From positions 1-64,000 of the forward strand of contig JAGHUS010000006.1 in NCBI GenBank assembly GCA_018064685.1: a stretch of DNA of 64,000 nt, in the 5' to 3' direction. This document shows, piece by piece, positions 42,884 through 54,299 of this stretch. The position numbers and the translations under genes are program-made. The stretch's first letter is position 1, and every line of letters starts with the position of its first letter. Origin of the DNA: Bacteroidales bacterium (GTDB lineage Bacteria; Bacteroidota; Bacteroidia; Bacteroidales; Bacteroidaceae). The notes beneath the pieces were generated by a model. It saw nothing but the letters and a program-made list of their open reading frames with translations. It did no database searches and had not been told where the DNA came from.

Positions 42884-45358
42884 TTACAGCCTGGAGTAGT
42901 AGAACCGCCTAACACCTTCATCGTCCCAGTTATGATCGCCGAGGTTGGAATACAGAGTGACGGGGCGATGCAACGTGGGACGGTAGAATTCATCGCCCTG
43001 CAACAGCGAGGGGAAGACGTGCTTCCAAAGTCCATCGCGCAGACCTGCCACTTCCTCGATTTGGTAGTTGGAGTGATAGGACATGTGAATGGAGTTTTGC
43101 AGCGTATATCCGTATTCATCAATCGTCTCTTGAGCGATGAGGTTGCCATGAGAGTCGTAGGAGTAGATTGTCTTATGCTTAAAAACATCACCTTTGTAGA
43201 ACTCGCTGTATGCCAAACGCCCTTCGCTGTCGTAAGTGTAGAGTGTATGGGTTTCTTTGGGCAGATTCTCGTGTTTGATTATTCTGCCCTTCTTGTCGTA
43301 GGTGGCGCGTTCCTGCAGTTCCATGCGTACAGTGTGGGGCACATCCTGAATGCGTGCCCAAAGGGCGTCGAGGAAGTACTCGTACTGCAGCACCTCGGTC
43401 AGCATGCCTTTTTTGTTATAATGATACACGTAGCGTACGTGCGAGCGTGAGGGCTGGAAGTCTTCACTCCATTTGTGACAGTCCTTGACGATCATTCTGC
43501 CGGCATCGTCATAGGCATACGCGTAGCAGTTGTGCCATCCCCGACGGTCAAGACTGTCGTTCTGCATGTCATCGTATTCTAGCACCTTTCGCCCGCTTTT
43601 GTCATACTCATATCTTGTGTCTTGACGGTATTTGTAGGCGTCTTTGCATATCATGCGCAATGGTTTGCTGTCGGCATCGTATTCGATGTGATAGACAATT
43701 GTGTCTTTGGCGTAAGCACTTTTGTAAGAATAGGATTCAACGCGTTGTAGCGAGTCGTAATGTGGAATGATGATTCGCACCCCACCATCCTTCGTCTGCG
43801 TCACCACGCTATCCAGTTTCAACAACAACTCGTCGCTGACAACCCTCTTCCATTTGACGTTTTTCTTTCTGCTTTTCTTTTCAACCTTCTCCTTTGGAGC
43901 ATCGACGGGGCGGTCGAGGTTGATATGCGGGAAGCGTGCCTTCAAGCGCTTGGCCTGCTTCTGTGTGACCTTGCCGTGCACGGTAAGGCGTTGGATGTCT
44001 ATGCTGTCCATCCACTGTGGCAGCTCGACACGATCCACGAAATAGAGGGAGAGGCGGTCGATGGCCTTTGCCTCGCGCAGTGCCTCGGGCACTCGCTTCA
44101 CGCGCAGTTCCAGTCCGAAGGGATTGCTGCCGTCAAGAGAGTTCGACTTGGAGGAGTCGCGCTTGCTGTACGTCTGCATCCGACGCTTCAAACCGTCGTT
44201 CATGGCATCGTTGCCTTCGCCCATTCGCACCATCCACCCTATCTGTGGCGTGAGGGCGAGGGTGACGGGGTCCTCCTTCACGCTGACCAGTCCGGCAAAG
44301 AGCTCCATGGACGTGTCGCTCAGTGTCTGTCCCGAGGGCGCTGTCACAACGTAGCGGAAAGGCACGCGCACCATCTCGCTCAGCATCTGTCGGGTGTGTG
44401 CCACCTTCTCGGGCGTGCGCACTCCGTCCTTGTCGTAGGGGAAGAGCTTCAGGAACCATCCGTCCAGCTCGGTAGGACCTTCAAAGCTGCAGCCGCCACC
44501 ACGCAGTCGCAGCGGTGTGTCCTTCATCACCATATCCTTCCAGAAAGCCTGGTTGGGCTTGCCCTGAGAGGCACGCACAAACTCCTTCAGTATGGGGTCT
44601 AAATCCTTCGTCCACCACCCCATACCATACTTCTTCAGGGCCATGGCCTTGTCGTGCACCTTCTGCCAGTCCTGCGGTGTGCCTTGCAGGGTGATGGTGG
44701 GGATGCCGCAAGCCAACGTGTGTACTATGTATTCGAAATAGCTCTTCATGGCGTCCATCAGGGTTATCTGCGAGGCGATGCGCTCGGTGGGACCGGTGGT
44801 GGTGAAGTCGGCAGTGATGGTGTGACAGATGTCGGCCTTGCTGTGCTGCGCTATCTGCCTCTCGAAGTCGGTCATGATGGCCGACCAGTCGGGATGCCCG
44901 CCGACAAGGTCTTCCTGGCTGTTCACTACCAGACTTATCTTTCCGTCATGACTTACCAGCTTGGAACGGAGTTCGTCGGCATGCTCGTTGACATAGTACG
45001 AGAAGTTCTGGGCTATGACGAGCCACACCATGTCGGGCGAGAGGACGAGGGGACGGTGCTCGGCAAAGCAGCGCACCATGGTATTGTAGAGGACGTCGGA
45101 GGTGCAGTACAGCATGGAGTCGCGCTCGAAACTGCTTGCCACAAGTCCGTCGGCTGGCTTCGCGACATTGGCATGCCCGGCCACCATCTTTGCCAGCTCC
45201 TTCCCACCACGAAGGGAGCTGTATTTGTCTCGTACTGGAGCCGGCAGGTTCTCGTCCACCACGAAGGTGATGCCCGATTCGGTCTTTGTCTGTTGTGCCG
45301 AAAGCATCATGGGCAGACACACAAAAAAGAGTAACAGAGAGAGTGTGCGTTTCTTCAT
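42884..45358 (-). CDS. Exported DUF4419-domain protein with YD-repeat-like C-terminus
   Basis: From the ATG at 45358 the product has 824 residues and a signal peptide (MKKRTLSLLLFFVCLPMMLSAQ). Residues about 30-400 fit DUF4419 (SPDMVWLVIAQNFSYYVN, then YGMGWWTKDLDPIL, GGCSFEGPTELDGWFLKLFPY). The C-terminal third has Tyr-Asp-rich strands of the RHS/YD type (YEYDKSGRKVLEYDD, YDKKGRI, YDSEGRLAYSEFY, YDSHGNLI). No lipobox. The function of DUF4419 is unknown; YD repeats often form shells or binding surfaces. A start at 45388 is possible but has no signal-peptide benefit. Confidence 0.75.
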   Translation of the reverse strand: MKKRTLSLLLFFVCLPMMLSAQQTKTESGITFVVDENLPAPVRDKYSSLRGGKELAKMVAGHANVAKPADGLVASSFERDSMLYCTSDVLYNTMVRCFAEHRPLVLSPDMVWLVIAQNFSYYVNEHADELRSKLVSHDGKISLVVNSQEDLVGGHPDWSAIMTDFERQIAQHSKADICHTITADFTTTGPTERIASQITLMDAMKSYFEYIVHTLACGIPTITLQGTPQDWQKVHDKAMALKKYGMGWWTKDLDPILKEFVRASQGKPNQAFWKDMVMKDTPLRLRGGGCSFEGPTELDGWFLKLFPYDKDGVRTPEKVAHTRQMLSEMVRVPFRYVVTAPSGQTLSDTSMELFAGLVSVKEDPVTLALTPQIGWMVRMGEGNDAMNDGLKRRMQTYSKRDSSKSNSLDGSNPFGLELRVKRVPEALREAKAIDRLSLYFVDRVELPQWMDSIDIQRLTVHGKVTQKQAKRLKARFPHINLDRPVDAPKEKVEKKSRKKNVKWKRVVSDELLLKLDSVVTQTKDGGVRIIIPHYDSLQRVESYSYKSAYAKDTIVYHIEYDADSKPLRMICKDAYKYRQDTRYEYDKSGRKVLEYDDMQNDSLDRRGWHNCYAYAYDDAGRMIVKDCHKWSEDFQPSRSHVRYVYHYNKKGMLTEVLQYEYFLDALWARIQDVPHTVRMELQERATYDKKGRIIKHENLPKETHTLYTYDSEGRLAYSEFYKGDVFKHKTIYSYDSHGNLIAQETIDEYGYTLQNSIHMSYHSNYQIEEVAGLRDGLWKHVFPSLLQGDEFYRPTLHRPVTLYSNLGDHNWDDEGVRRFYYSRL

Positions 45359-45630
45359 TTTCTTCTTGGAATTTTGGTTTTGTGGCACTTGTGGATTTCG
45401 TGTGAGAGAAATTAAACATCAACAAAGAAAAACCTTTCAAAAAACCGGTTTTTATTATGTTTTTATTGGTTGATATTTCCACTTCACACAATTCCCACGT
45501 TTTTTCGACGGCAAAGGTAGAGGTTCTGCCCGAAAACTGCAAGAAATGCATTTCACAAATAATTCACAATTGACATTTGTATTTCACAAATAATTCACAA
45601 ACGCCACTTAACACACTGTTCATGCGATAG

Positions 45631-46845
45631 TTACAAAGATTGAACGAAAGCATCCCAATCCTTGGCTGTTCCACTGCCGCCAAACACCTTTTGCTGCATT
45701 CTGAGTCGGCTTTGCGACACACTGCTGGCGCCCATTGCCAGGAGCCGGGCCATGTTGGAGGGCGTCGTATCCATCTTGATGAGCATGCAGATGCGGTATT
45801 CCGTCTCCGACAGTTCGTAGAGCGAATAGAGGGTGCTGCGGAATTGCGGGAAGGCAGCCAGCAGTCGCTCCTCGACCATTCGCCAATCGGCAGGACGCAG
45901 CGCCTTGTCGGCCTTGATATGGGAACGAAGCATCTCATCCACCTCGGCGTCGTAGAAGGCACGATGGTTGGGAGGCAACGAGTGAGAGGATGGCTCCTCG
46001 TCCTGCGCAGTAACGTCCGGCTCGGCGTGCATGCTTGTCTGCGCATTGACTTTCTGTCTACGCCAAACCCACATCCCGATAACGGCCAACAAGGCTCCAG
46101 CCATCACAAGCCACGGCGTCATGTTGCCGCCTTCGTCCACCCGCCTCTTCTGCATCTCGTTCTGCAGTCGAAGCACCTTGTTGTGGGCACGCTCCATCAG
46201 CATGTTGCACGACTGGCGCATGGCGACGAGCGATGCCGTGTCGCGCTGCGTCTGCAGCATCATCTGGTCGATGGTGGCAATGTCCTCGGTGCTGTAACGC
46301 ACACCCAGTGTGTCGCCGATGTTACGGCAGAAGGTGCGAGCCATCTCCTGCATGTCGCGTGCCTCCTCATAGAGGCCGTTGCGAAGGAACACATACCCCT
46401 TTTGGGCAAAGAGGCGGCTGCGCCAGTAGTCGTTCAGCCACAGGGTGTCGCACGTCAGCGACAGCTCGGTGTAGTACAGATGCCGACGCGAATTCTTGTC
46501 CACATCGGCGCAGACACGTCCGGCATAGTAATAAGCCATGCCCATCTTCTGCCAGTCGCCCTGCTGCTCGTAGTAATCCACCACCTTCATAATGAGCGAG
46601 TCGGAAGTATGCTTCTTGTATATCTTGTCCGTTCCGCGCACCGTGAGCAGGTCGTAGTACATCAGCACCTCCTCGTCCATCGTTGCCACCTCGGCGCGCA
46701 TGTCCTCGAGCATGGCAAAGGCGCTGTCGGGATGGTCGTAGAAGAGCGAGTCGACGTCAGCCAGGCGCGACATCATCCGTCCAGCCTTGTCACACGAAGC
46801 GAGAAGGAGGAAGAGGAGAAGGACTGTGAGCCAGCATCTGTTCAT
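45631..46845 (-). CDS. Lipoprotein TPR / membrane / HTH regulator
   Basis: From the ATG at 46845 the 404-residue product has a lipoprotein-type signal (MNRCWLTVLLLFLLLASCDK), TPR-like helices (about 20-240) and one transmembrane helix (MTPWLVMAGALLAVIGMWVW, about 242-261). The final domain (about 310-400) reads LSETEYRICMLIKMDTTPSNMARLL with SVSQSRLRMQQKVFG, a LuxR-like helix-turn-helix. Such TPR-membrane-HTH proteins couple an outer or periplasmic sensor region to a cytoplasmic DNA-binding end. A lipid anchor and a cytoplasmic domain are hard to combine, so the N-terminal Cys may be an uncleaved signal anchor. Two related genes lie at 47027 and 47467. Confidence 0.75.
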   Translation of the reverse strand: MNRCWLTVLLLFLLLASCDKAGRMMSRLADVDSLFYDHPDSAFAMLEDMRAEVATMDEEVLMYYDLLTVRGTDKIYKKHTSDSLIMKVVDYYEQQGDWQKMGMAYYYAGRVCADVDKNSRRHLYYTELSLTCDTLWLNDYWRSRLFAQKGYVFLRNGLYEEARDMQEMARTFCRNIGDTLGVRYSTEDIATIDQMMLQTQRDTASLVAMRQSCNMLMERAHNKVLRLQNEMQKRRVDEGGNMTPWLVMAGALLAVIGMWVWRRQKVNAQTSMHAEPDVTAQDEEPSSHSLPPNHRAFYDAEVDEMLRSHIKADKALRPADWRMVEERLLAAFPQFRSTLYSLYELSETEYRICMLIKMDTTPSNMARLLAMGASSVSQSRLRMQQKVFGGSGTAKDWDAFVQSL

Positions 46846-47026
46846 ACGAATCTGCACATTATTTTTGACTAACGACAAAGACTATCCACACAACACCCTA
46901 GCAGGGAGGGGTAGTATGACATTGCAAAGTTACAAATAATATTTGAAACGACAAGAGATTGCTGAGTCAAAATGTCAAATAACGTAAGTTCGATGAAATA
47001 TAAATGACTAAAAAAAACTGACAGAA

Positions 47027-47314
47027 TCAAGAGGAGGATGCATGAATCCGACTAAAGAGGTTACTGTTTTGATTATCGTTGCCAGCTTGTTCTTCTGTTA
47101 TCCAACTGTATTTCTTCATCCATCTCCAAACCGTTACACGTGCAAGATTTGTCAGGTGTTGTATTTCTTGGCCTGACAATCCGATACGCATCAGATAAAA
47201 CACCTGCATGTGCTGTTCAGTGAATTGTCCTACCTTATTGATTATATTCATTCTGAAAGTCGGATAGAGTTTGTCAACTGCTTGATACAGTTTTTTCCAG
47301 TCGTTAGCCGACAT
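47027..47314 (-). CDS. Stand-alone HTH protein related to the TPR-HTH regulators
   Basis: The 95-residue product (SANDWKKLYQAVDKLYPTFRMNII..., FTEQHMQVFYLMRIGLSGQEIQHLTNLARVTVWRWMKKYSW) matches the C-terminal DNA-binding end of TPR-membrane-HTH proteins such as that at 47467-49374 (LTEEDWDELIELSGQHFPTF...). It lacks any sensor or membrane part. It may be a truncated regulator or an independent repressor. It is divergent from the gene at 47467 across a 152-bp gap. Confidence 0.6.
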   Translation of the reverse strand: MSANDWKKLYQAVDKLYPTFRMNIINKVGQFTEQHMQVFYLMRIGLSGQEIQHLTNLARVTVWRWMKKYSWITEEQAGNDNQNSNLFSRIHASSS

Positions 47315-47324
47315 TTACCATGAA

Positions 47325-47388
47325 TGTACTTTTGTGTACTTTTTTCTTCCAAAACATTTGCGCACTTTATTTTTTGTGCTTATTTTTG
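47325..47388 (+). promoter_or_regulatory. Promoter copy A with conserved upstream element
   Basis: TTTG (47357-47360), 20 bp, TATTTTTG (47381-47388). The preceding 30 bp (47325-47354, tgtacttttgtgtacttttt...) is identical to that at 49437-49466. The two promoters align without gaps at an offset of 2112 bp. Confidence 0.85.
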
Positions 47389-47466
47389 CGCGGAGAAATG
47401 AAAATATACTGGATTCTATTGATTTTTGAGATAATTTGAAAATCGCAAGTTTACAACATACATATT

Positions 47467-49374
47467 ATGAGCTACTGTAGGAAGTCTCCGTTATCTCTTT
47501 TTCTTTTGATTTTACTTTTTGTTATCAGCTCATGTTCGAGTCAGAGAGAAGAACGCTTTATGTCTTTTCTGAACGTTACGGAAGACTTGATAGAAGTATC
47601 ACCCGACTCTGCATTTCATTTGCTAGGTCAGTTGAATCCCGACCAATTAGAAGGTATTTCGCAGAGAGAGCGGAATTCTTACTTCTTGCTAAGGGCTAAG
47701 GCTCAGAACAAAGCCTTTATTCCGTTTGAAGATGACAGTTTGATGCTATCCTTAGTATCCTACTACGATTCAAAGGGGTCGGCAAACGAGCGCGTCCTTT
47801 CCAATTATATGTTAGGTTGTGTTTATCGCGACTTGGCAGAAGCGCCCAATGCCATCAGTTGTTTCCAGAAAGCCATTAATAGTGCTGATACTCTGTCGGC
47901 AGAGTGCGATAATAGGTTGCTAAGCAGTGTGTATTCACAGATGGCGGAACTTTGGGGTGCACAGTTGCTTTGGAACGATGAAATACGATGCCGGGAACAG
48001 TCTGTCAAATACTCACTCATGGCCAATGATACGCTAAACGCGCTGTATGACTTTTGTTTGATGGCATCTGCATATTTCAAACTTAACGAACCGACAAAGG
48101 CAGAAAAAATCTTGCTGAAAGCCAAAGAGGAGTATGAAAAACTCGGTGAACAACAAGAATGGCTTGACTTTTCGATTATTCTCATAGCCCTATACACAGA
48201 AAAGATAGATGAGTTTGATAAAGCTAGATCTTTAATAAATGAGTATGAGGCCAAAACGGTCTATGTTGACGACCAAGGAGTAATTCTGCCTCAGAGAAGG
48301 CATTTATACAGTTACAAAGCGCACTATTTTGAGCATAATCATGAATTAGATTCTGCCCTTTATTATTATGCAAAATCCGTCCATCCCGACATGCAGTTTC
48401 CGGAATTTGATCTAATGTATCGTGGACTGCTACGAGTTTACCAAGAAATGAACGAACCAGATTCCATTGCTAAATATGCTGCCTTGTATTGTATGTTTAA
48501 TGATTCATCGATTGCGCTGACAGATAGGGAAATAACTAAGAGGATGACCTCCCTGTACAATTACAATCGATTTGCACAAATGGCTTCGGAACAACAACAG
48601 AAGGCAAAAGATGCGATATACAACATGATGCTTGTAGTCTCATTCTTCCTTTTATTTGCTGTTTCCGCATGTACAACAATTCTATTAATGTATCGAAGCA
48701 AAAAGCGAAAACAGCAGGAACTTGAGGATACATTGAACAGATATACAGAGGCATGCAAGAGATTGGAAGAGTCAAAAAGCGAACAGCATGAGAAGGAGAA
48801 ATACTATATTCAGTTATCTGCCACACTGCAAGAGGAACTGACCGATGCAAGGCTGCATTTCTTCAACCAAGAAGAGAAATGTGAGCGTTTGCAAAACGAC
48901 ATAGAAGCATTGGCAGAACTAAGAACGAGAGAGACAGAGAAATATATTGCATATCAAAATGCCTTGGAAAAAGAGATTGAGCAGTTATTGCGAAATGAGC
49001 ATGTTCGCGAGATGAACAATAGAACTATATCTTTTAAAAATTCACTAAAAGTTAGATACTTCAAGGATGTGGCAAACGATCCAAGAAAGAGCTTGACAGA
49101 AGAGGACTGGGACGAATTGATAGAACTTTCTGGTCAACATTTTCCCACCTTTCTTCATGACCTTCGCAACAATCCAAATCTCAGTTCACAAGCTATAAAG
49201 GTAGCTGTATTAACCCTTGTGAAAATGCATGAAGGCGAAATGGCTAATCTTTTGAGTGTGAACAAACAGCGCATATCCAACATCAAATCGGAGATAAACA
49301 AAAAGCTATTCGGAGAAACCTCTGCAAAGTCTTTATATGGCAATCTGACAAAAAATTACCTGACACTACCATAA
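47467..49374 (+). CDS. Lipoprotein TPR / membrane / coiled-coil / HTH regulator
   Basis: The 635-residue protein has a lipoprotein-type signal (LLFVISSCSSQ, Cys near 23), TPR repeats over about 35-370, one membrane helix (MMLVVSFFLLFAVSACTTILLMY, about 383-405) and a charged coiled coil (about 410-530). The C-terminal HTH-like domain (LTEEDWDELIELSGQHFPTFLHDLRN..., KMHEGEMANLLSVNKQRISNIKSEINKKLFG) follows. The arrangement suggests an envelope sensor with a cytoplasmic DNA-binding end. The next gene downstream is DUF3244, whose promoter is a copy of this gene's own. Regulation of the downstream genes is inference. Confidence 0.8.
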   Translation: MSYCRKSPLSLFLLILLFVISSCSSQREERFMSFLNVTEDLIEVSPDSAFHLLGQLNPDQLEGISQRERNSYFLLRAKAQNKAFIPFEDDSLMLSLVSYYDSKGSANERVLSNYMLGCVYRDLAEAPNAISCFQKAINSADTLSAECDNRLLSSVYSQMAELWGAQLLWNDEIRCREQSVKYSLMANDTLNALYDFCLMASAYFKLNEPTKAEKILLKAKEEYEKLGEQQEWLDFSIILIALYTEKIDEFDKARSLINEYEAKTVYVDDQGVILPQRRHLYSYKAHYFEHNHELDSALYYYAKSVHPDMQFPEFDLMYRGLLRVYQEMNEPDSIAKYAALYCMFNDSSIALTDREITKRMTSLYNYNRFAQMASEQQQKAKDAIYNMMLVVSFFLLFAVSACTTILLMYRSKKRKQQELEDTLNRYTEACKRLEESKSEQHEKEKYYIQLSATLQEELTDARLHFFNQEEKCERLQNDIEALAELRTRETEKYIAYQNALEKEIEQLLRNEHVREMNNRTISFKNSLKVRYFKDVANDPRKSLTEEDWDELIELSGQHFPTFLHDLRNNPNLSSQAIKVAVLTLVKMHEGEMANLLSVNKQRISNIKSEINKKLFGETSAKSLYGNLTKNYLTLP

Positions 49375-49436
49375 ATTATTTTACATTGAAAATCAGAATA
49401 TTACAAATACCATTATTACCATTTCCTACCCCTAGG

Positions 49437-49500
49437 TGTACTTTTGTGTACTTTTTTCTTCCAAAATATTTGCATACTTTATGTTTTGAACTTAATTTTG
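49437..49500 (+). promoter_or_regulatory. Promoter copy B before the DUF3244 gene
   Basis: TTTG (49469-49472), 20 bp, TAATTTTG (49493-49500). The upstream 30 bp (49437-49466) is identical to promoter copy A. A transcription start near 49507 is expected, which supports the coding start at 49524. Confidence 0.85.
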
Positions 49501-49523
49501 CGGAGAATTTAAAAAATAAACTT

Positions 49524-49886
49524 ATGGGAAATAAAGTATCTATTATCTTTCTTCTTTTCTATTTTATGTGTATTACTAATGCGAACGCGCAAGCGATTGA
49601 TGTTACTTTACAAGTCGGATACATAGATCCGTCAATAAACAAAAATGGTTCGCACCGTACGCCACCAGCCGCACTACACATGGAAGTGGATGGCAATGTA
49701 TTGTATCTCCCTTCGTTGCAAAACGACTATGATGTTCGTTTGGAGGATTTAGATGGCATTGTAGTTTGGGAACAACATATATATAATGGGGAAGAAACCG
49801 TGACAATTCCTCTTCAATTAACCGGATGTTATAAATTAGTATTAACTAGGGAGTTTATCACCTATTATGCATTCATAAGTCTTTGA
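49524..49886 (+). CDS. DUF3244-type exported protein, 120 aa
   Basis: From ATG 49524 the product has 120 residues and a signal peptide (MGNKVSIIFLLFYFMCITNANAQ). The rest is a small beta domain (LHMEVDGNVLYLPSLQNDYDVRLEDLDG, then VTIPLQLTGCYKLVLT), as in Bacteroidales DUF3244 proteins, which have an Ig-like fold. A longer frame beginning at 49386 starts upstream of the promoter and is rejected. The duplicated promoter ties it to the regulator at 47467. Confidence 0.75.
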   Translation: MGNKVSIIFLLFYFMCITNANAQAIDVTLQVGYIDPSINKNGSHRTPPAALHMEVDGNVLYLPSLQNDYDVRLEDLDGIVVWEQHIYNGEETVTIPLQLTGCYKLVLTREFITYYAFISL

Positions 49887-50315
49887 CCAAAGTTTGCCAT
49901 CCTTACGGGGAGCGACAAAATAGTGTCAAGATAGGGGCGATTTGATAACCGATAGTACCCTAAGCTGCTTCAACTATACAAAATCAACATAACACTATTG
50001 TTATTTTTATAATAGATGTGTTCTATTTTTCTGCAGATTTTGGGCTTATTTCGCCTTTTGACGACGGTCAAAATGCAGAGTGTAGCGGGGCTACATGACT
50101 TTCGCCTACAGGACTTTTGACTACGGTACAAAAGTAAAAGTAGAGAATAAGAGCAAAAGGTGTGAAAAAGAGAGTGCATATATTATAAAAGTTCACTTAC
50201 TACACATTAACTAAATAATTTTGATTACTTAGTATCTTGATTATAATGACGTCATCTATATAATGCGGAACCGAAAAGCTATAATAGAGTAGGAACAAGA
50301 AAATAGTATAAAAAA
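49887..50315. other. Intergenic region with short hairpins, no gene seen
   Basis: The 429-bp gap has no credible gene. It contains two similar stems, ttttgac/gtcaaaa near 50056-50075 and acttttg/caaaagt near 50112-50134. A TAATTTTG box (50216-50223) could serve the next gene. The shape suggests a dispersed noncoding element. Confidence 0.45.
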
Positions 50316-50525
50316 ATGAAGAAAATACTTTTGTTAGGTGCAATGTGCCTTCTTAGTATGGGAGCGTATGCGTCTCAAACTATCCGTTTAAGTTGCGGTA
50401 TCGAGGTTCAGACTGTCGATCCCAGTTTTTTCCCAAGCCTGGAAGAATATGCTGACTTTATTGCTGAGTTGGAGGAGGATTTCTGTGGTGTGAAGCGTGA
50501 CCAAAATACAGACCTTAAGCCTTAA
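50316..50525 (+). CDS. Small exported protein, 69 aa
   Basis: The product has a signal peptide (MKKILLLGAMCLLSMGAYA), leaving a mature peptide of about 50 residues (SQTIRLSCGIEVQTVDPSFF..., acidic and ending DQNTDLKP) with two cysteines. I do not recognise it. It lies between the DUF3244 gene and a GLPGLI gene on the same strand. A long-range 12-bp stem follows at once, so it may be terminated or attenuated there. Confidence 0.6.
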   Translation: MKKILLLGAMCLLSMGAYASQTIRLSCGIEVQTVDPSFFPSLEEYADFIAELEEDFCGVKRDQNTDLKP

Positions 50526-50537
50526 ATACTAACTAAG

Positions 50538-50597
50538 GATGTGTCAAGTGTGGTTTAAAAATCATTTCTTGTTTTCACGATTCATACTTGACACATC
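50538..50597 (+). promoter_or_regulatory. Long-range stem between the small peptide and GLPGLI genes
   Basis: gatgtgtcaagt (50538-50549) pairs perfectly with acttgacacatc (50586-50597) across a 36-nt loop. It lies in the 92-bp gap between two genes and could stop or attenuate transcription. There is no T run. Confidence 0.55.
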
Positions 50598-50617
50598 TAT
50601 AAGAATCCATTGTTAAG

Positions 50618-51493
50618 ATGAAATACAACCGGCGTTTCTTTGCTCTCGCTTTTTTTCTATTTCACTTCACCAGTCTTGTTGTCTGTGCTCAAGAGGAGGA
50701 TCCGAACGCGTGGAGAAAGCGATTAAATTACTTTTATCCGGAAACAGTGCTGGATAGCAGCAATGTGGAGTGCATCTACGACTATTATGTTACGGATACA
50801 GTGCGTAATGAAAGGAAAAGAACGGAGTTTATTTTGCTGCATGGCAAGCAGTACTCTAAGTATATGGATTACGAGGCTTACCGTTTGGATTCGGTAGAGT
50901 GTACCAGGGACAGAACGAAACTAACTTGGGGAGATTGTGACGATATTCGTAAGGAATATAATATTATTACTACGACGAGTTCACTTATCTATTTGTTGAA
51001 AGACCATGCAAGTGGTATGATACAGGTGTTTGACAAGGTGTTTATGGACAAATATACTTACCTTGACTCTCTTGCCAGATTTGAGTGGGAACTGGTTGAT
51101 TCGACCCGTGAGGTTTGCGGCTATGTCTGCCACAAGGCTACCACAAGTTTCCGTGGACGTAAATGGACAGCCTGGTATTGTGACCTGCCCATAAATGACG
51201 GCCCATGGAAGTTCTCCGGTCTCCCCGGATTGATATTGGCTATCTACGACACATCCACTTGTCAACGCTTCATAGCTAATACCATCAGAATGGGAAAAAG
51301 TTGCATAAAACGTATAGAGAGAGACGACATAAAGACAACCCGAGAGAAATTCAACAAAGCTTTGAAGCAGTATAAGGAAGACCCAAGAGGCTTGAGGCAC
51401 GCAATGGGCATCGAAGTGAAAGTTGTGAACAATGGTGGTGAAACGGGAACGCCTTATCGGCGCGGTTTTTATAACCCCTTAGAGTTAGAGTGA
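50618..51493 (+). CDS. GLPGLI-family exported protein
   Basis: The 291-residue protein has a signal peptide (RFFALAFFLFHFTSLVVCAQ) and the name-giving motif FSGLPGLILAIYD near residue 200, preceded by GRKWTAWYCDLPINDGPWKF. GLPGLI proteins are common in Bacteroidetes, usually next to TonB-type barrel genes, and have no fixed function. Its TGA overlaps the start of the barrel gene (TGATG), so the two are coupled. Confidence 0.88.
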   Translation: MKYNRRFFALAFFLFHFTSLVVCAQEEDPNAWRKRLNYFYPETVLDSSNVECIYDYYVTDTVRNERKRTEFILLHGKQYSKYMDYEAYRLDSVECTRDRTKLTWGDCDDIRKEYNIITTTSSLIYLLKDHASGMIQVFDKVFMDKYTYLDSLARFEWELVDSTREVCGYVCHKATTSFRGRKWTAWYCDLPINDGPWKFSGLPGLILAIYDTSTCQRFIANTIRMGKSCIKRIERDDIKTTREKFNKALKQYKEDPRGLRHAMGIEVKVVNNGGETGTPYRRGFYNPLELE

Positions 51494-54135
51494 TGCGCCT
51501 CTTCTGCCGTTTCATACTGGTTTGTGTGCTGCTTGTCGTGTTTCCACTAACCGTCAGTGCTCAAGGGCGCTTAGCGGGAACGGTGACCGACGAGGCAGGT
51601 GTGCCTCTGCCCTCGGTCGTTGTAAAAGTGTATGACGAGACAGGAAGCAAGATGCTGACCTATGCCATGACAGATGTGCACGGGAGATATGCTGTTGAGG
51701 TGAAGCAATCAGTAGAAAAGGTGATGGTGCGGTTCAACTGCATGGGATTTGTACAAAAAGAATGCAAGGTTGACAAGTTCGGGACTCAGGAGCACATCAC
51801 ATTGAAGGAAGGGCAGACGGAGATGAAGGAGGTGTCGGTACGAGCAAAACCCGTAGTTTCGCGTAATGACACCATCAGCTATAACGTAGCACGATTGAAG
51901 GATAAGAGCGACAGGACGATTGAGGATGTCATAAAGAAAATACCCGGGATAGAAGTCGAGGAATCGGGGACCATCAAGTATAACGGAAAACCCATCAACA
52001 AGTTCTATATTGAAGGTGCAGACATGCTGGGAGGCAGGTACAGCCTGGCATCAAAGAATATCGATGCTGAGGATGTAGCCACTGTGAGTGTATATGAAAA
52101 TCATCAGCCAAAACGTGTACTGAAGGATATTGCCATCTCTGACCAGGCCGCGCTTAACCTGAAACTGAAAAATGGTAATATGCTTCGGCCCATCGGCAAT
52201 GCTTCTGTAGGTGCGGGGTTGGGGGATAAGGCCTTGTGGCAAGCCGGTCTCTTCACACTCTTGGTGTCACCCAAGAAGCAATATCTCGTCACATTAAAGG
52301 GTAACAACACGGCAGCACTATACGATGACGAGGCGGCAGACTATTTCAGTACCTCATCCAGTCGCAATGCCCTTGTCAGCGATTTGCTGCATCCCTCTCT
52401 TTCCGGTCCTTCCTATATCTCGGCAAGCCGAAGCTGTGACAATCGTTCTGCAATAACGACCTATAATTCTCTCCATACGTTGTCGAAGGACGTACACCTG
52501 AACGTCAATGGAGGGTACCACTACAATCATCTGGACAACAGAATAGATAAGGCCAGTACGTTCACGACATCGGATGGTGTGGGTGTGGTGGTTAACGAGA
52601 ACACACGGAATAGCATTGGCTCGCATGCTGGTTGGCTGAAATTAAAATACGAAAGCAACAAGGACTCGGCTTACGTTAATGAACAACTCAGTGCAGAGGG
52701 AAAATTGCAGGATGGTGAGTGCAAGATAGCAACGTCTGCTCCTGTGAGACAATATGTCAAGTCTGCCAACTATCTTGTCACCAATCATCTCGAAATGATT
52801 TGGCGACGTAACGGTCATGCTTATAACTTCAAGTCGATAACGTCGCTGGGTAATTCACCCAAAAACATGCTGGATGCACTCACGCCCGGTGTCTCGGGAG
52901 GCGATTCGCTCATCGTGAGTCAGAATATTGACGGGCTGAGGTTTCACAATCAGGAGTCGTCGTACTACAAATGGGCACTTTCGCACATGGTGACGTTGGG
53001 GGTTGATGGTCTTTTCCAACTGGATTATGACAAGATGAATGCCACAATGATGCATGCCGCTGATGGTACAGAAATGCAATACGGAGGTCGTCAGATACAG
53101 GCAGAGGTAGCTCCTTCACTGGGGCTGCGTTTGAACCAGGACATGAACGCGAGCATCAATCTTGTAACACAATATGGCAGCCTGCATTACCGCGACCAGA
53201 TAAGCCGGGAGGACTATCGCTATGACCGTCCTCGCGTCGGGCTACGCACTTCTTTCGCTTACAGAATAAAGCAGAATGTGCGACTGACGTGTGGCGCTAG
53301 CCATCTGGGTACGATGGGCAACATGTTCAACTATGTTACCATACCACTTTATCTCACCTATCGTGATCGCAGTGTACTGGGGTCGGGACGGCATGACTAT
53401 AAGACCAAGACTACGGTCAATGTGAATCTGAACTGCCACGACGTGATAACGGGTCGTAATGCCAATCTGACAGCGCATTACCAGCATGTGCATGGCAATG
53501 TGTCCAGCGGCAGTGATGTATCGCAAAATCAAACTTCGACATTCTATACCCAGCATGGAAGTAATACCGACTCGTGGCTTATCGTAGCCAATGTCTCAAA
53601 AAACGTGTATGACTGGCACACGATATTCTCACTGCGTGGTGAGATGGCGCTCAATGGCGCACAGATGTATCGCCAAAACACTTTTTTTCGTTTTCACAAT
53701 GACATCTATGCTGTCGAGGGACGTTTGCAGTCTTCCATCCTTCAACAGATGCTGACTGTCAATGTCAGCGCCCAGTATATTCTTTCGCTTCAGCATGGCG
53801 GTTTGTTGACAGCGCCTAACCGGCAAAACGATTACAACATGAATGCAGAGGTTACTCTGGTTCCTCTGTCGGGATGGCAAGTTTATTTGCGTTGCAATGC
53901 TTCATTTATTCAGAAACCTTCATGCGATACTTCTGCATCTCGCTATAACCGACACTCGTATCTGGATGTAGGTTCTCAATATGCTTTCAAAAAGTTTCTG
54001 CTGGAATTATCCCTTCGCAACGTGACAAACCGTCGCCAGTATCACGTGCGCCAGTTCTCGGCCTTAGATACATACGACTACCTCTACCATCTCCGTCCCA
54101 TCGAAGGAGTGTTGACGGTTCGCTACAATCTTTAG
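51493..54135 (+). CDS. TonB-receptor-like outer-membrane barrel with carboxypeptidase-regulatory domain
   Basis: The 880-residue protein starts at ATG 51493 within the GLPGLI stop. It has a signal peptide, a carboxypeptidase-D regulatory-like domain (about 25-110: GTVTDEAGVPLPSVVVKVYDETG), a plug-like domain (IPGIEVEESGTIKYNGKPINKFYIEGADMLGG, about 150-230) and a long beta-barrel. The usual TonB-box was not seen. SusD is absent, so this is not a Sus pair. It probably passes or exports a peptide or metal complex together with its GLPGLI partner; the substrate is unknown. Confidence 0.85.
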   Translation: MRLFCRFILVCVLLVVFPLTVSAQGRLAGTVTDEAGVPLPSVVVKVYDETGSKMLTYAMTDVHGRYAVEVKQSVEKVMVRFNCMGFVQKECKVDKFGTQEHITLKEGQTEMKEVSVRAKPVVSRNDTISYNVARLKDKSDRTIEDVIKKIPGIEVEESGTIKYNGKPINKFYIEGADMLGGRYSLASKNIDAEDVATVSVYENHQPKRVLKDIAISDQAALNLKLKNGNMLRPIGNASVGAGLGDKALWQAGLFTLLVSPKKQYLVTLKGNNTAALYDDEAADYFSTSSSRNALVSDLLHPSLSGPSYISASRSCDNRSAITTYNSLHTLSKDVHLNVNGGYHYNHLDNRIDKASTFTTSDGVGVVVNENTRNSIGSHAGWLKLKYESNKDSAYVNEQLSAEGKLQDGECKIATSAPVRQYVKSANYLVTNHLEMIWRRNGHAYNFKSITSLGNSPKNMLDALTPGVSGGDSLIVSQNIDGLRFHNQESSYYKWALSHMVTLGVDGLFQLDYDKMNATMMHAADGTEMQYGGRQIQAEVAPSLGLRLNQDMNASINLVTQYGSLHYRDQISREDYRYDRPRVGLRTSFAYRIKQNVRLTCGASHLGTMGNMFNYVTIPLYLTYRDRSVLGSGRHDYKTKTTVNVNLNCHDVITGRNANLTAHYQHVHGNVSSGSDVSQNQTSTFYTQHGSNTDSWLIVANVSKNVYDWHTIFSLRGEMALNGAQMYRQNTFFRFHNDIYAVEGRLQSSILQQMLTVNVSAQYILSLQHGGLLTAPNRQNDYNMNAEVTLVPLSGWQVYLRCNASFIQKPSCDTSASRYNRHSYLDVGSQYAFKKFLLELSLRNVTNRRQYHVRQFSALDTYDYLYHLRPIEGVLTVRYNL

Positions 54136-54211: not shown

Positions 54212-54299
54212 TGGTGCCTCGAACGGGACTCGAACCCGTACGGCCGTTATGGCCAAGGGATTTTAAGTCCCTCGTGTCTACCAATTCCACCATCAAGGC
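54212..54299 (-). tRNA. tRNA-Leu (anticodon UAA)
   Basis: The minus-strand 88 nt fold as a class II tRNA. The 7-bp acceptor stem is GCCTTGA with TCGAGGC, CCA is encoded at 54212-54214, the variable arm is long, and the anticodon loop ACTTAAAAT carries UAA. It is convergent with the barrel gene. Confidence 0.96.

Follow-up and report, generated by a model that had tools for sequence, protein, structure and literature searches.

Several described systems resemble parts of the five-gene cassette reported here, which lies at positions 47467-54135 of a 64,000-nt stretch of a Bacteroidales genome (contig JAGHUS010000006.1, assembly GCA_018064685.1; the whole stretch is referred to as the window). 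The cassette encodes a tetratricopeptide repeat (TPR)-membrane-helix-turn-helix (HTH) regulator, a DUF3244-like protein, a 69-aa miniprotein, a GLPGLI protein, and a TonB-type barrel; its parts have known analogues in SusR, in the BT_3442 operon, and in GLPGLI-barrel pairs. SusR of Bacteroides (PMC3878776) is a membrane protein that senses in the periplasm, binds DNA through a cytoplasmic domain, has predicted direct-repeat sites, and activates a TonB-type uptake operon. The regulator encoded at 47467 has a similar predicted anatomy (a sensor, one transmembrane helix, and a C-terminal HTH), with a direct repeat found upstream and a TonB-type barrel operon adjoining. However, the repeat in the window has a period of 10 nt, against 67 or 77 for SusR; the 47467 protein has no match to the SusR model NF058541 (cut-off 480); and no SusD or glycan-enzyme match was found in the window cassette.

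The BT_3442-BT_3433 cluster of B. thetaiotaomicron (PMC2954219) contains a TPR protein, the immunoglobulin (Ig)-fold protein BT_3441, and MACPF proteins, and thus shares with the window the order of a TPR protein, then a small Ig-fold protein, then surface proteins; its cargo is MACPF proteins and lipoproteins, whereas the window has a miniprotein, GLPGLI, and a barrel. Pairs of GLPGLI (TIGR01200) and CarboxypepD barrel genes are also represented in the window, but here the pair is joined by a 5′ miniprotein gene, a hairpin, a DUF3244-like gene, a dedicated regulator, and a second GLPGLI cysteine (CGYxC). Similarly, Bacteroidota loci for ribosomally synthesized and post-translationally modified peptides (RiPPs) can have a small cysteine-rich precursor adjoining GLPGLI and a barrel (L077, L086, L316), and TonB-related proteins have been proposed as graspetide exporters (PMC8939145); unlike these, the product in the window carries a Sec-like leader and has neither a GG leader match nor a modification enzyme. 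A sequence-only reading of this DNA knew of no described system with this gene set, and our literature search, with most subscription journals outside its coverage, agrees. The GLPGLI name is scarce in the literature searched and, in the portions of text seen, appears in lists of regulated genes.

The features of the cassette, in window coordinates, are as follows ("exported" refers throughout to leaders judged by look, not by a signal-peptide program).

47325..47354, forward strand: 30-bp site, copy 1, a direct repeat (TGTACTTTT) with a 10-nt period, 5′ of the regulator gene 47467; putative operator
47357..47388, forward strand: candidate Bacteroides-type promoter, TTTG-N20-TATTTTTG, before 47467
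47467..49374, forward strand: TPR-membrane-HTH one-component regulator, 635 aa (domain scan, regulator hidden Markov model [HMM], and transmembrane prediction)
49437..49466, forward strand: second copy of the 30-bp site, with the same sequence as the first, 5′ of 49524
49469..49500, forward strand: candidate Bacteroides-type promoter, TTTG-N20-TAATTTTG, before 49524
49524..49886, forward strand: 120-aa exported protein, DUF3244-like (it scores 32.7 bits with an HMM built from 14 further short proteins of DUF3244 type)
50005..50190: inverted repeat, imperfect (arms about 55 nt long, 75% identical), between the DUF3244-like and miniprotein genes
50262..50295, forward strand: DUF805b RNA motif (RF02914), 20 nt 5′ of the miniprotein start codon
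50316..50525, forward strand: 69-aa two-cysteine miniprotein with a Sec-like leader by eye (family profile)
50537..50598, forward strand: RNA hairpin with a 17-bp stem, between the miniprotein and GLPGLI genes (z -4.4)
50618..51493, forward strand: GLPGLI protein, 291 aa, with a CGYVC motif at Cys167/Cys171 (TIGR01200, 152.6 bits)
51490..54135, forward strand: TonB-dependent-receptor-like outer-membrane barrel, 881 aa from a GTG start that overlaps the GLPGLI end

The sequence-only reading had grouped the wider region 45631-54135, namely two regulators, a 95-aa HTH-type open reading frame (ORF), and the four-gene exported/GLPGLI/barrel set, and all of these are real as first seen; the co-occurrence of regulator, DUF3244-type, and GLPGLI genes that it proposed to survey is also borne out elsewhere. 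The full five-gene cassette was found four times: in the window, on C110 (L034) of the same genome, and in L062 and L072, which come from two other Bacteroidales genomes and hold the regulator, DUF3244-like, miniprotein, GLPGLI, and barrel genes alike. The C110 copy encodes a 591-aa regulator, a 125-aa exported protein, a 73-aa exported protein, GLPGLI, and a barrel, in the gene order of the window; identities to the window proteins are 27.2% (regulator), 22.6% (DUF3244-like), 39.7% (miniprotein), 46.1% (GLPGLI), and 33.9% (barrel). With identities of only 23-46%, the gene order has therefore outlived much divergence. A genome scan with three GLPGLI proteins as queries returned 40 loci, 38 of which contain a barrel ORF (the L073 barrel at 18 bits only); a clear two-cysteine small ORF lies 5′ of GLPGLI in eight (L056, L059, L062, L064, L065, L066, L071, and L072), and diverged two-cysteine small ORFs are present in three further loci (L063, L090, and L073).

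The miniprotein is closely tied to its GLPGLI neighbour. We searched 393 genomes of the order and 139 of the genus with a profile of 13 miniprotein sequences; the first pass scored at most 15 (order) or 43 (genus) candidates from each genome, which makes absences soft evidence. At E≤1e-4 the order survey yielded five matches, spread over four genomes, and all five are directly 5′ of GLPGLI and a barrel, although two of them are the own genome's, themselves in the profile, and one (L152, in G446) is decayed, having no ATG start and missing the second cysteine. In the genus, three strong matches (each above 80 bits) are all beside GLPGLI; the other 24 of the 27 matches at E≤0.01 were dropped, since they scored at most 25.8 bits and 20 of them lay in frames of at least 185 aa. 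Searching the genus, own genome included, with the 69-aa protein itself found one paralogue (C110) and one homologue (G103). Cys27 and Cys57 are invariant in a 17-sequence alignment, and no credible Pfam, NCBIfam, or PDB relative of the miniprotein was found. The 69-aa protein matches no NCBIfam model, the GG-leader TIGR04149 included, and the own genome has no TIGR04149 match. The protein belongs to a rare, undescribed family of exported two-cysteine miniproteins.

Regulation is indicated by the intergenic DNA, in which an exact 30-bp repeat, TGTACTTTTGTGTACTTTTTTCTTCCAAAA, was found by reading. Each copy stops two bases 5′ of a TTTG-N20-TAnnTTTG sequence, which we take to be the Bacteroides -33/-7 promoter type. 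A 26-nt pattern allowing up to three mismatches occurs at only these two places in the host assembly (3.8 Mb in 206 contigs, 84% complete), and the reversed control gave none. The repeat sits within a longer 86-nt repeat that is 81% identical, with 30/30 matching positions in the core against 40/56 outside it. We also scored the similarity between the upstream regions of the regulator and of the DUF3244-type gene at 13 loci: the window scored 45, the others 7-15, and none of 156 mismatched pairs exceeded 15. The earlier proposal that 47467 controls 49524 gains support from this site, found in the assembly only before these two genes; judged from the DNA, the two genes are very probably co-regulated, and a shared site with an adjoining promoter is the footprint that would be expected of autoregulation plus operon control. 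Since the site is just 5′ of the -33 element and has a 10-nt period, its placement suggests that the regulator may act as an activator, not a repressor.

The pairing of such a regulator with a short DUF3244-type gene is general among the genus loci. The 120-aa protein has no PF11589 match at E≤1, and its genome has none at all; its short DUF3244-type relationship appears from the match to an HMM that excludes it, and from the regulator directly adjoining. With the same HMM of 14 proteins its C110 counterpart scores 58.9 bits, and the L062 and L072 proteins only 16.0 and 16.7 bits. Sequence searches found no credible solved-structure relative of the 120-aa protein; the 3d33 type we take to be DUF3244. 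A TPR-transmembrane-HTH regulator adjoins the PF11589 match in 16 of 18 short-ORF loci (≤190 aa) versus none of 12 long-ORF loci (Fisher p 1e-6), for 30 loci taken from a longer match list, all of one genus; the 190-aa limit was chosen after the list was seen, and at 150 aa the count is 15/17.

The 92-nt gap between the miniprotein and GLPGLI genes contains the 17-bp stem, and hairpins are a regular feature of this position: the gaps that follow miniprotein genes have z≤-2.1 in 18 of 18 cases (median -3.9), compared with a median of -0.06 for 24 other gaps of such loci, which were hand-picked and of which three fall below -3 (Mann-Whitney p 1.6e-5). Locus L063 alone supplies five of the 18 gaps, and L062 supplies two; the L035 gap, at 20 nt, was too short and was left out. 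Two longer control gaps, in the window (49886-50316) and in L066 (8738-9157), were also left out, and much of the former (49960-50230) folds at z -3.43. Stem sequences vary among loci, T runs follow some of the stems, and the window hairpin was not listed by a terminator scan. We infer that these hairpins may be terminators or may protect mRNA, in either case raising the miniprotein above GLPGLI and the barrel.

The GLPGLI-barrel pair is the constant part, as follows from the presence of a barrel, mostly adjoining GLPGLI, in 57 of 60 class-survey GLPGLI regions (chosen by us, mostly high-scoring, with L240 and L241 taken for their miniprotein). The window GLPGLI protein is well above the curated TIGR01200 cut-off of 50 bits, and such proteins are found in 265 of 396 Bacteroidia genomes at E≤0.001, in 164 of them over that cut-off. 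Both cysteines of CGYxC are present in 22 of 28 GLPGLI genes at miniprotein loci, 14 of 68 at other Bacteroidales loci (L051-L053, of the own genome, among them), and 2 of 80 in the class survey, with L035/L056 and L151/L240 each counted twice; by locus, leaving out the duplicates L056 and L240, L072 (an ambiguous base), and L241 (decayed), the counts are 10 of 14 miniprotein loci versus 10 of 90 others (p 4.7e-6). Because shared ancestry is not removed from these counts, the association of CGYxC with the miniprotein is only suggestive. The GLPGLI profile reaches PNGase F-II in PDB (E 0.0046), and other types of small exported ORF were seen 5′ of GLPGLI in L212, L213, L214, L233, and L237 of the class survey.

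Gene content, the conserved order, the shared site with its promoter, the hairpin, and the linkage of the miniprotein to GLPGLI and the barrel are all observed, and on them we build a model of an inducible, autoregulated surface-peptide cassette, a full mechanism that we regard as evenly balanced between right and wrong. The 47467 protein would hold its TPR part in the periplasm and its HTH in the cytoplasm, joined by one membrane helix, and would bind the 30-bp direct repeat before its own gene and before 49524, activating both promoters as SusR does for the starch genes. The 49524 operon would then yield the DUF3244-like protein, an Ig-type exported protein and probably a periplasmic partner of the regulator, followed by the 69-aa exported disulfide miniprotein, made in larger amounts than the downstream products if the hairpin cuts transcription or shields the mRNA. 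GLPGLI, in the periplasm or outer membrane, and the TonB-type barrel would move the miniprotein or a cargo across the outer membrane, feeding back on the sensor. The sequence-only reading had likewise proposed that an envelope or peptide signal may be sensed and a ligand passed through the barrel. Activation, topology, export, the disulfide, the direction of transport, and the identity of the inducer are what we infer here, from sequence. By the tests made, the cassette falls outside the SusR, BT3442, and RiPP families, and by analogy it would operate as a SusR-controlled locus does, with a product of peptide type. With its regulation, defined small product, candidate operator, and putative export/receptor pair, the cassette would open the GLPGLI, DUF3244-type, and TPR-membrane-HTH families to a concrete experiment; it also suggests that small cysteine proteins serve rumen- and gut-type Bacteroidales in an outer-membrane circuit under regulation.

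Several results weigh against this model. No counterpart of the 30-bp site is found in the C110 cassette or the other regulator-DUF3244 loci compared; the 12 loci other than the window score 7-15, in the mismatched-pair range. An operator common to other cassettes was thus not found, the putative operator is seen at a single locus, and simple duplication of the promoter DNA would give the same picture as a shared operator. The inverted repeat between 49524 and 50316 means that a single transcript is not assured. In the genus, the miniprotein is present in 2 of 139 genomes (among the candidates scored) versus 51 for GLPGLI, so GLPGLI and barrels must mostly work without it. In addition, the match to the plug domain is weak (E 0.03 for the barrel of the window, and E≤0.01 for 7 of 19 barrels), and 28 of 30 fetched TIGR04149 loci, from 37 matches, have no GLPGLI within 1.5 kb.

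It is possible, if on balance rather unlikely, that the cassette serves instead for the uptake of a nutrient or cofactor, with the barrel and GLPGLI importing a ligand that the miniprotein captures (in a hemophore- or mini-SusD-like way) and that the TPR domain senses once imported. The barrel profile reaches SusC homologues (8aa4), though only in their N-terminal domain; a match to the TonB plug is found in 7 of 19 relatives; and SusR-type regulators control uptake loci. In Riemerella, GLPGLI genes and a TonB receptor are under PhoP regulation, and a PG0720 table of P. gingivalis lists two GLPGLI genes. The miniprotein itself fits a capturing role poorly: in the 13-sequence alignment, leader aside, only the two cysteines and one threonine are invariant, with no His or Met ligand for metal or heme, and a domain-model scan of the window proteins matched no enzyme or SusD model to any cassette protein.

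Peptide signalling, with the miniprotein or a fragment of it secreted as a pheromone, taken up again by the barrel, and detected in the periplasm by the TPR domain, is in our view improbable. Peptide binding is a property of RRNPP-type TPR regulators, and the TPR sensor, the putatively autoregulated promoter, the apparent excess of small product, and the occurrence of GLPGLI-barrel pairs with exported RiPP-type precursors would all suit such a circuit. RRNPP regulators are, however, cytoplasmic, and the miniprotein loci L035, L064, L066, and L071 have no such regulator within the DNA fetched.

A role in bacterial competition, in which the miniprotein would be antimicrobial or toxin-like at the surface and GLPGLI and the barrel would be parts for export or immunity, finds its analogues in related GLPGLI-barrel pairs linked to radical-SAM/C39-ABC cysteine-rich peptides and in the BT_3442-family TPR protein that heads a MACPF cluster in B. 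thetaiotaomicron (PMC2954219). The cassette proteins scanned include no modification enzyme or dedicated exporter, and likewise no radical SAM protein, and we consider this role very unlikely. A chance neighbourhood of ordinary envelope genes is scarcely credible, for although each of these three kinds of gene (GLPGLI, regulator, barrel) is common and the proposed site is at one locus only, the order conserved in L062, in L072, and, despite identities of 23-46%, on C110, the uniqueness of the shared site in the assembly, and the hairpin statistic all disfavour it.

Returning to the surface-peptide model, the RiPP-type loci bear on how widely it might extend. In L086 (167-9250) a single run of genes joins GLPGLI to a cysteine-rich precursor resembling TIGR04149 (24.4 bits, against a cut-off of 25), a radical SAM enzyme, an ABC exporter with a C39 peptidase, and a barrel of CarboxypepD type, and in L077 and L316 TIGR04149-type precursors are directly 5′ of GLPGLI. 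Together with the miniprotein linkage, these loci point to small secreted cysteine products as one client class of GLPGLI-barrel pairs, as far as sequence can indicate. We would go further only speculatively, with the balance against it: the GLPGLI-barrel pair may be a general Bacteroidota outer-membrane device for small secreted cysteine peptides, GLPGLI engaging the peptide (possibly by CGYxC), and the window may hold a regulated, Sec-exported circuit of this kind, with the TPR regulator sensing the peptide or cargo and governing its own production. In L316 (1687-2667) the TIGR04149-type precursor runs in frame into GLPGLI without a stop, giving a 326-aa ORF.

Three further features flank the cassette.

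45631..46878, reverse strand: second regulator of the 47467 type, with a reduced TPR part, a transmembrane segment at about 253-271, and an HTH-like C-terminal end
47027..47314, reverse strand: HTH-type ORF standing by itself, 95 aa, in divergent orientation to the main regulator 47467
54212..54299, strand opposite to the cassette: tRNA-Leu

The 45631 protein scores 438 bits with the regulator HMM, which was iterated with 45631 itself included, and is probably an accessory or separate regulator; downstream of it, at 42884-45388, is an 834-aa DUF4419 protein with an RHS repeat. The 47027 ORF shares 40% identity with the L055 regulator at its C-terminal end (58 aa compared), and may be a relic of a divergent regulator of the L055 type. 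BT3442_fam is the commonest curated match among the regulators of alignment A9 (7 of 14, weakly and far below the cut-off): 45631 scores 53.6 bits with the corresponding model, NF053779, against a curated cut-off of 940, and 47467 has no match to it.

The own genome has 22 regulator-profile matches, some weak, at 17 places by our own grouping (three of these places on C91), and a barrel is near eight of the 17 (C91, C110, C57, C79, C127, C43, C78, and C187). The regulators on C43, C78, and C194 (L303, L305, and L307) have a different N-terminal part, with WQLVQEEW in two of them, and the same C-terminal end; those on C43 and C78 adjoin barrels. On C57 (L051, L052) an island of 11 GLPGLI matches and several CarboxypepD barrels also contains two gene pairs that by eye look sigma/anti-sigma-like, and a regulator with a weak match to SusR (NF058541, 30.3 bits; cut-off 480). 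A possible common motif, AATTGTTATTACCG, is found upstream of both the regulator and the DUF3244 gene in L272 and L273; another regulator subtype may use it as its operator. Near other regulator-DUF3244 pairs (L260:962-1315, L268:1982-2290, and L273:2927-8974) there are small exported ORFs whose start resembles that of a 2015-aa protein; they are possibly truncated starts of large surface proteins.

The DUF805b RNA in the window scores 38.5 bits (gathering score 35.6) and is the single copy found in the genome; two of the four hairpin pairs of the match are non-standard. We rejected this RNA as a shared control of small-protein genes, since none of 13 other miniprotein loci (L034, L035, L059, L062, L063, L064, L065, L066, L071, L072, L090, L150, and L151) has it at the gathering score. 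It occurs in 41 of the 139 genus genomes at E≤0.001, in 32 of them over the cut-off, and OmpX-like proteins are downstream of 18 of the 29 other fetched genus copies (by eye). A sub-threshold copy (29.6 bits) was seen in L272 (G101:C80:7579-7611) between the DUF3244 gene and an exported 177-aa ORF, and at L025:1501-1533 the RNA is 5′ of two tandem cysteine-rich small ORFs with GG-type leaders by eye.

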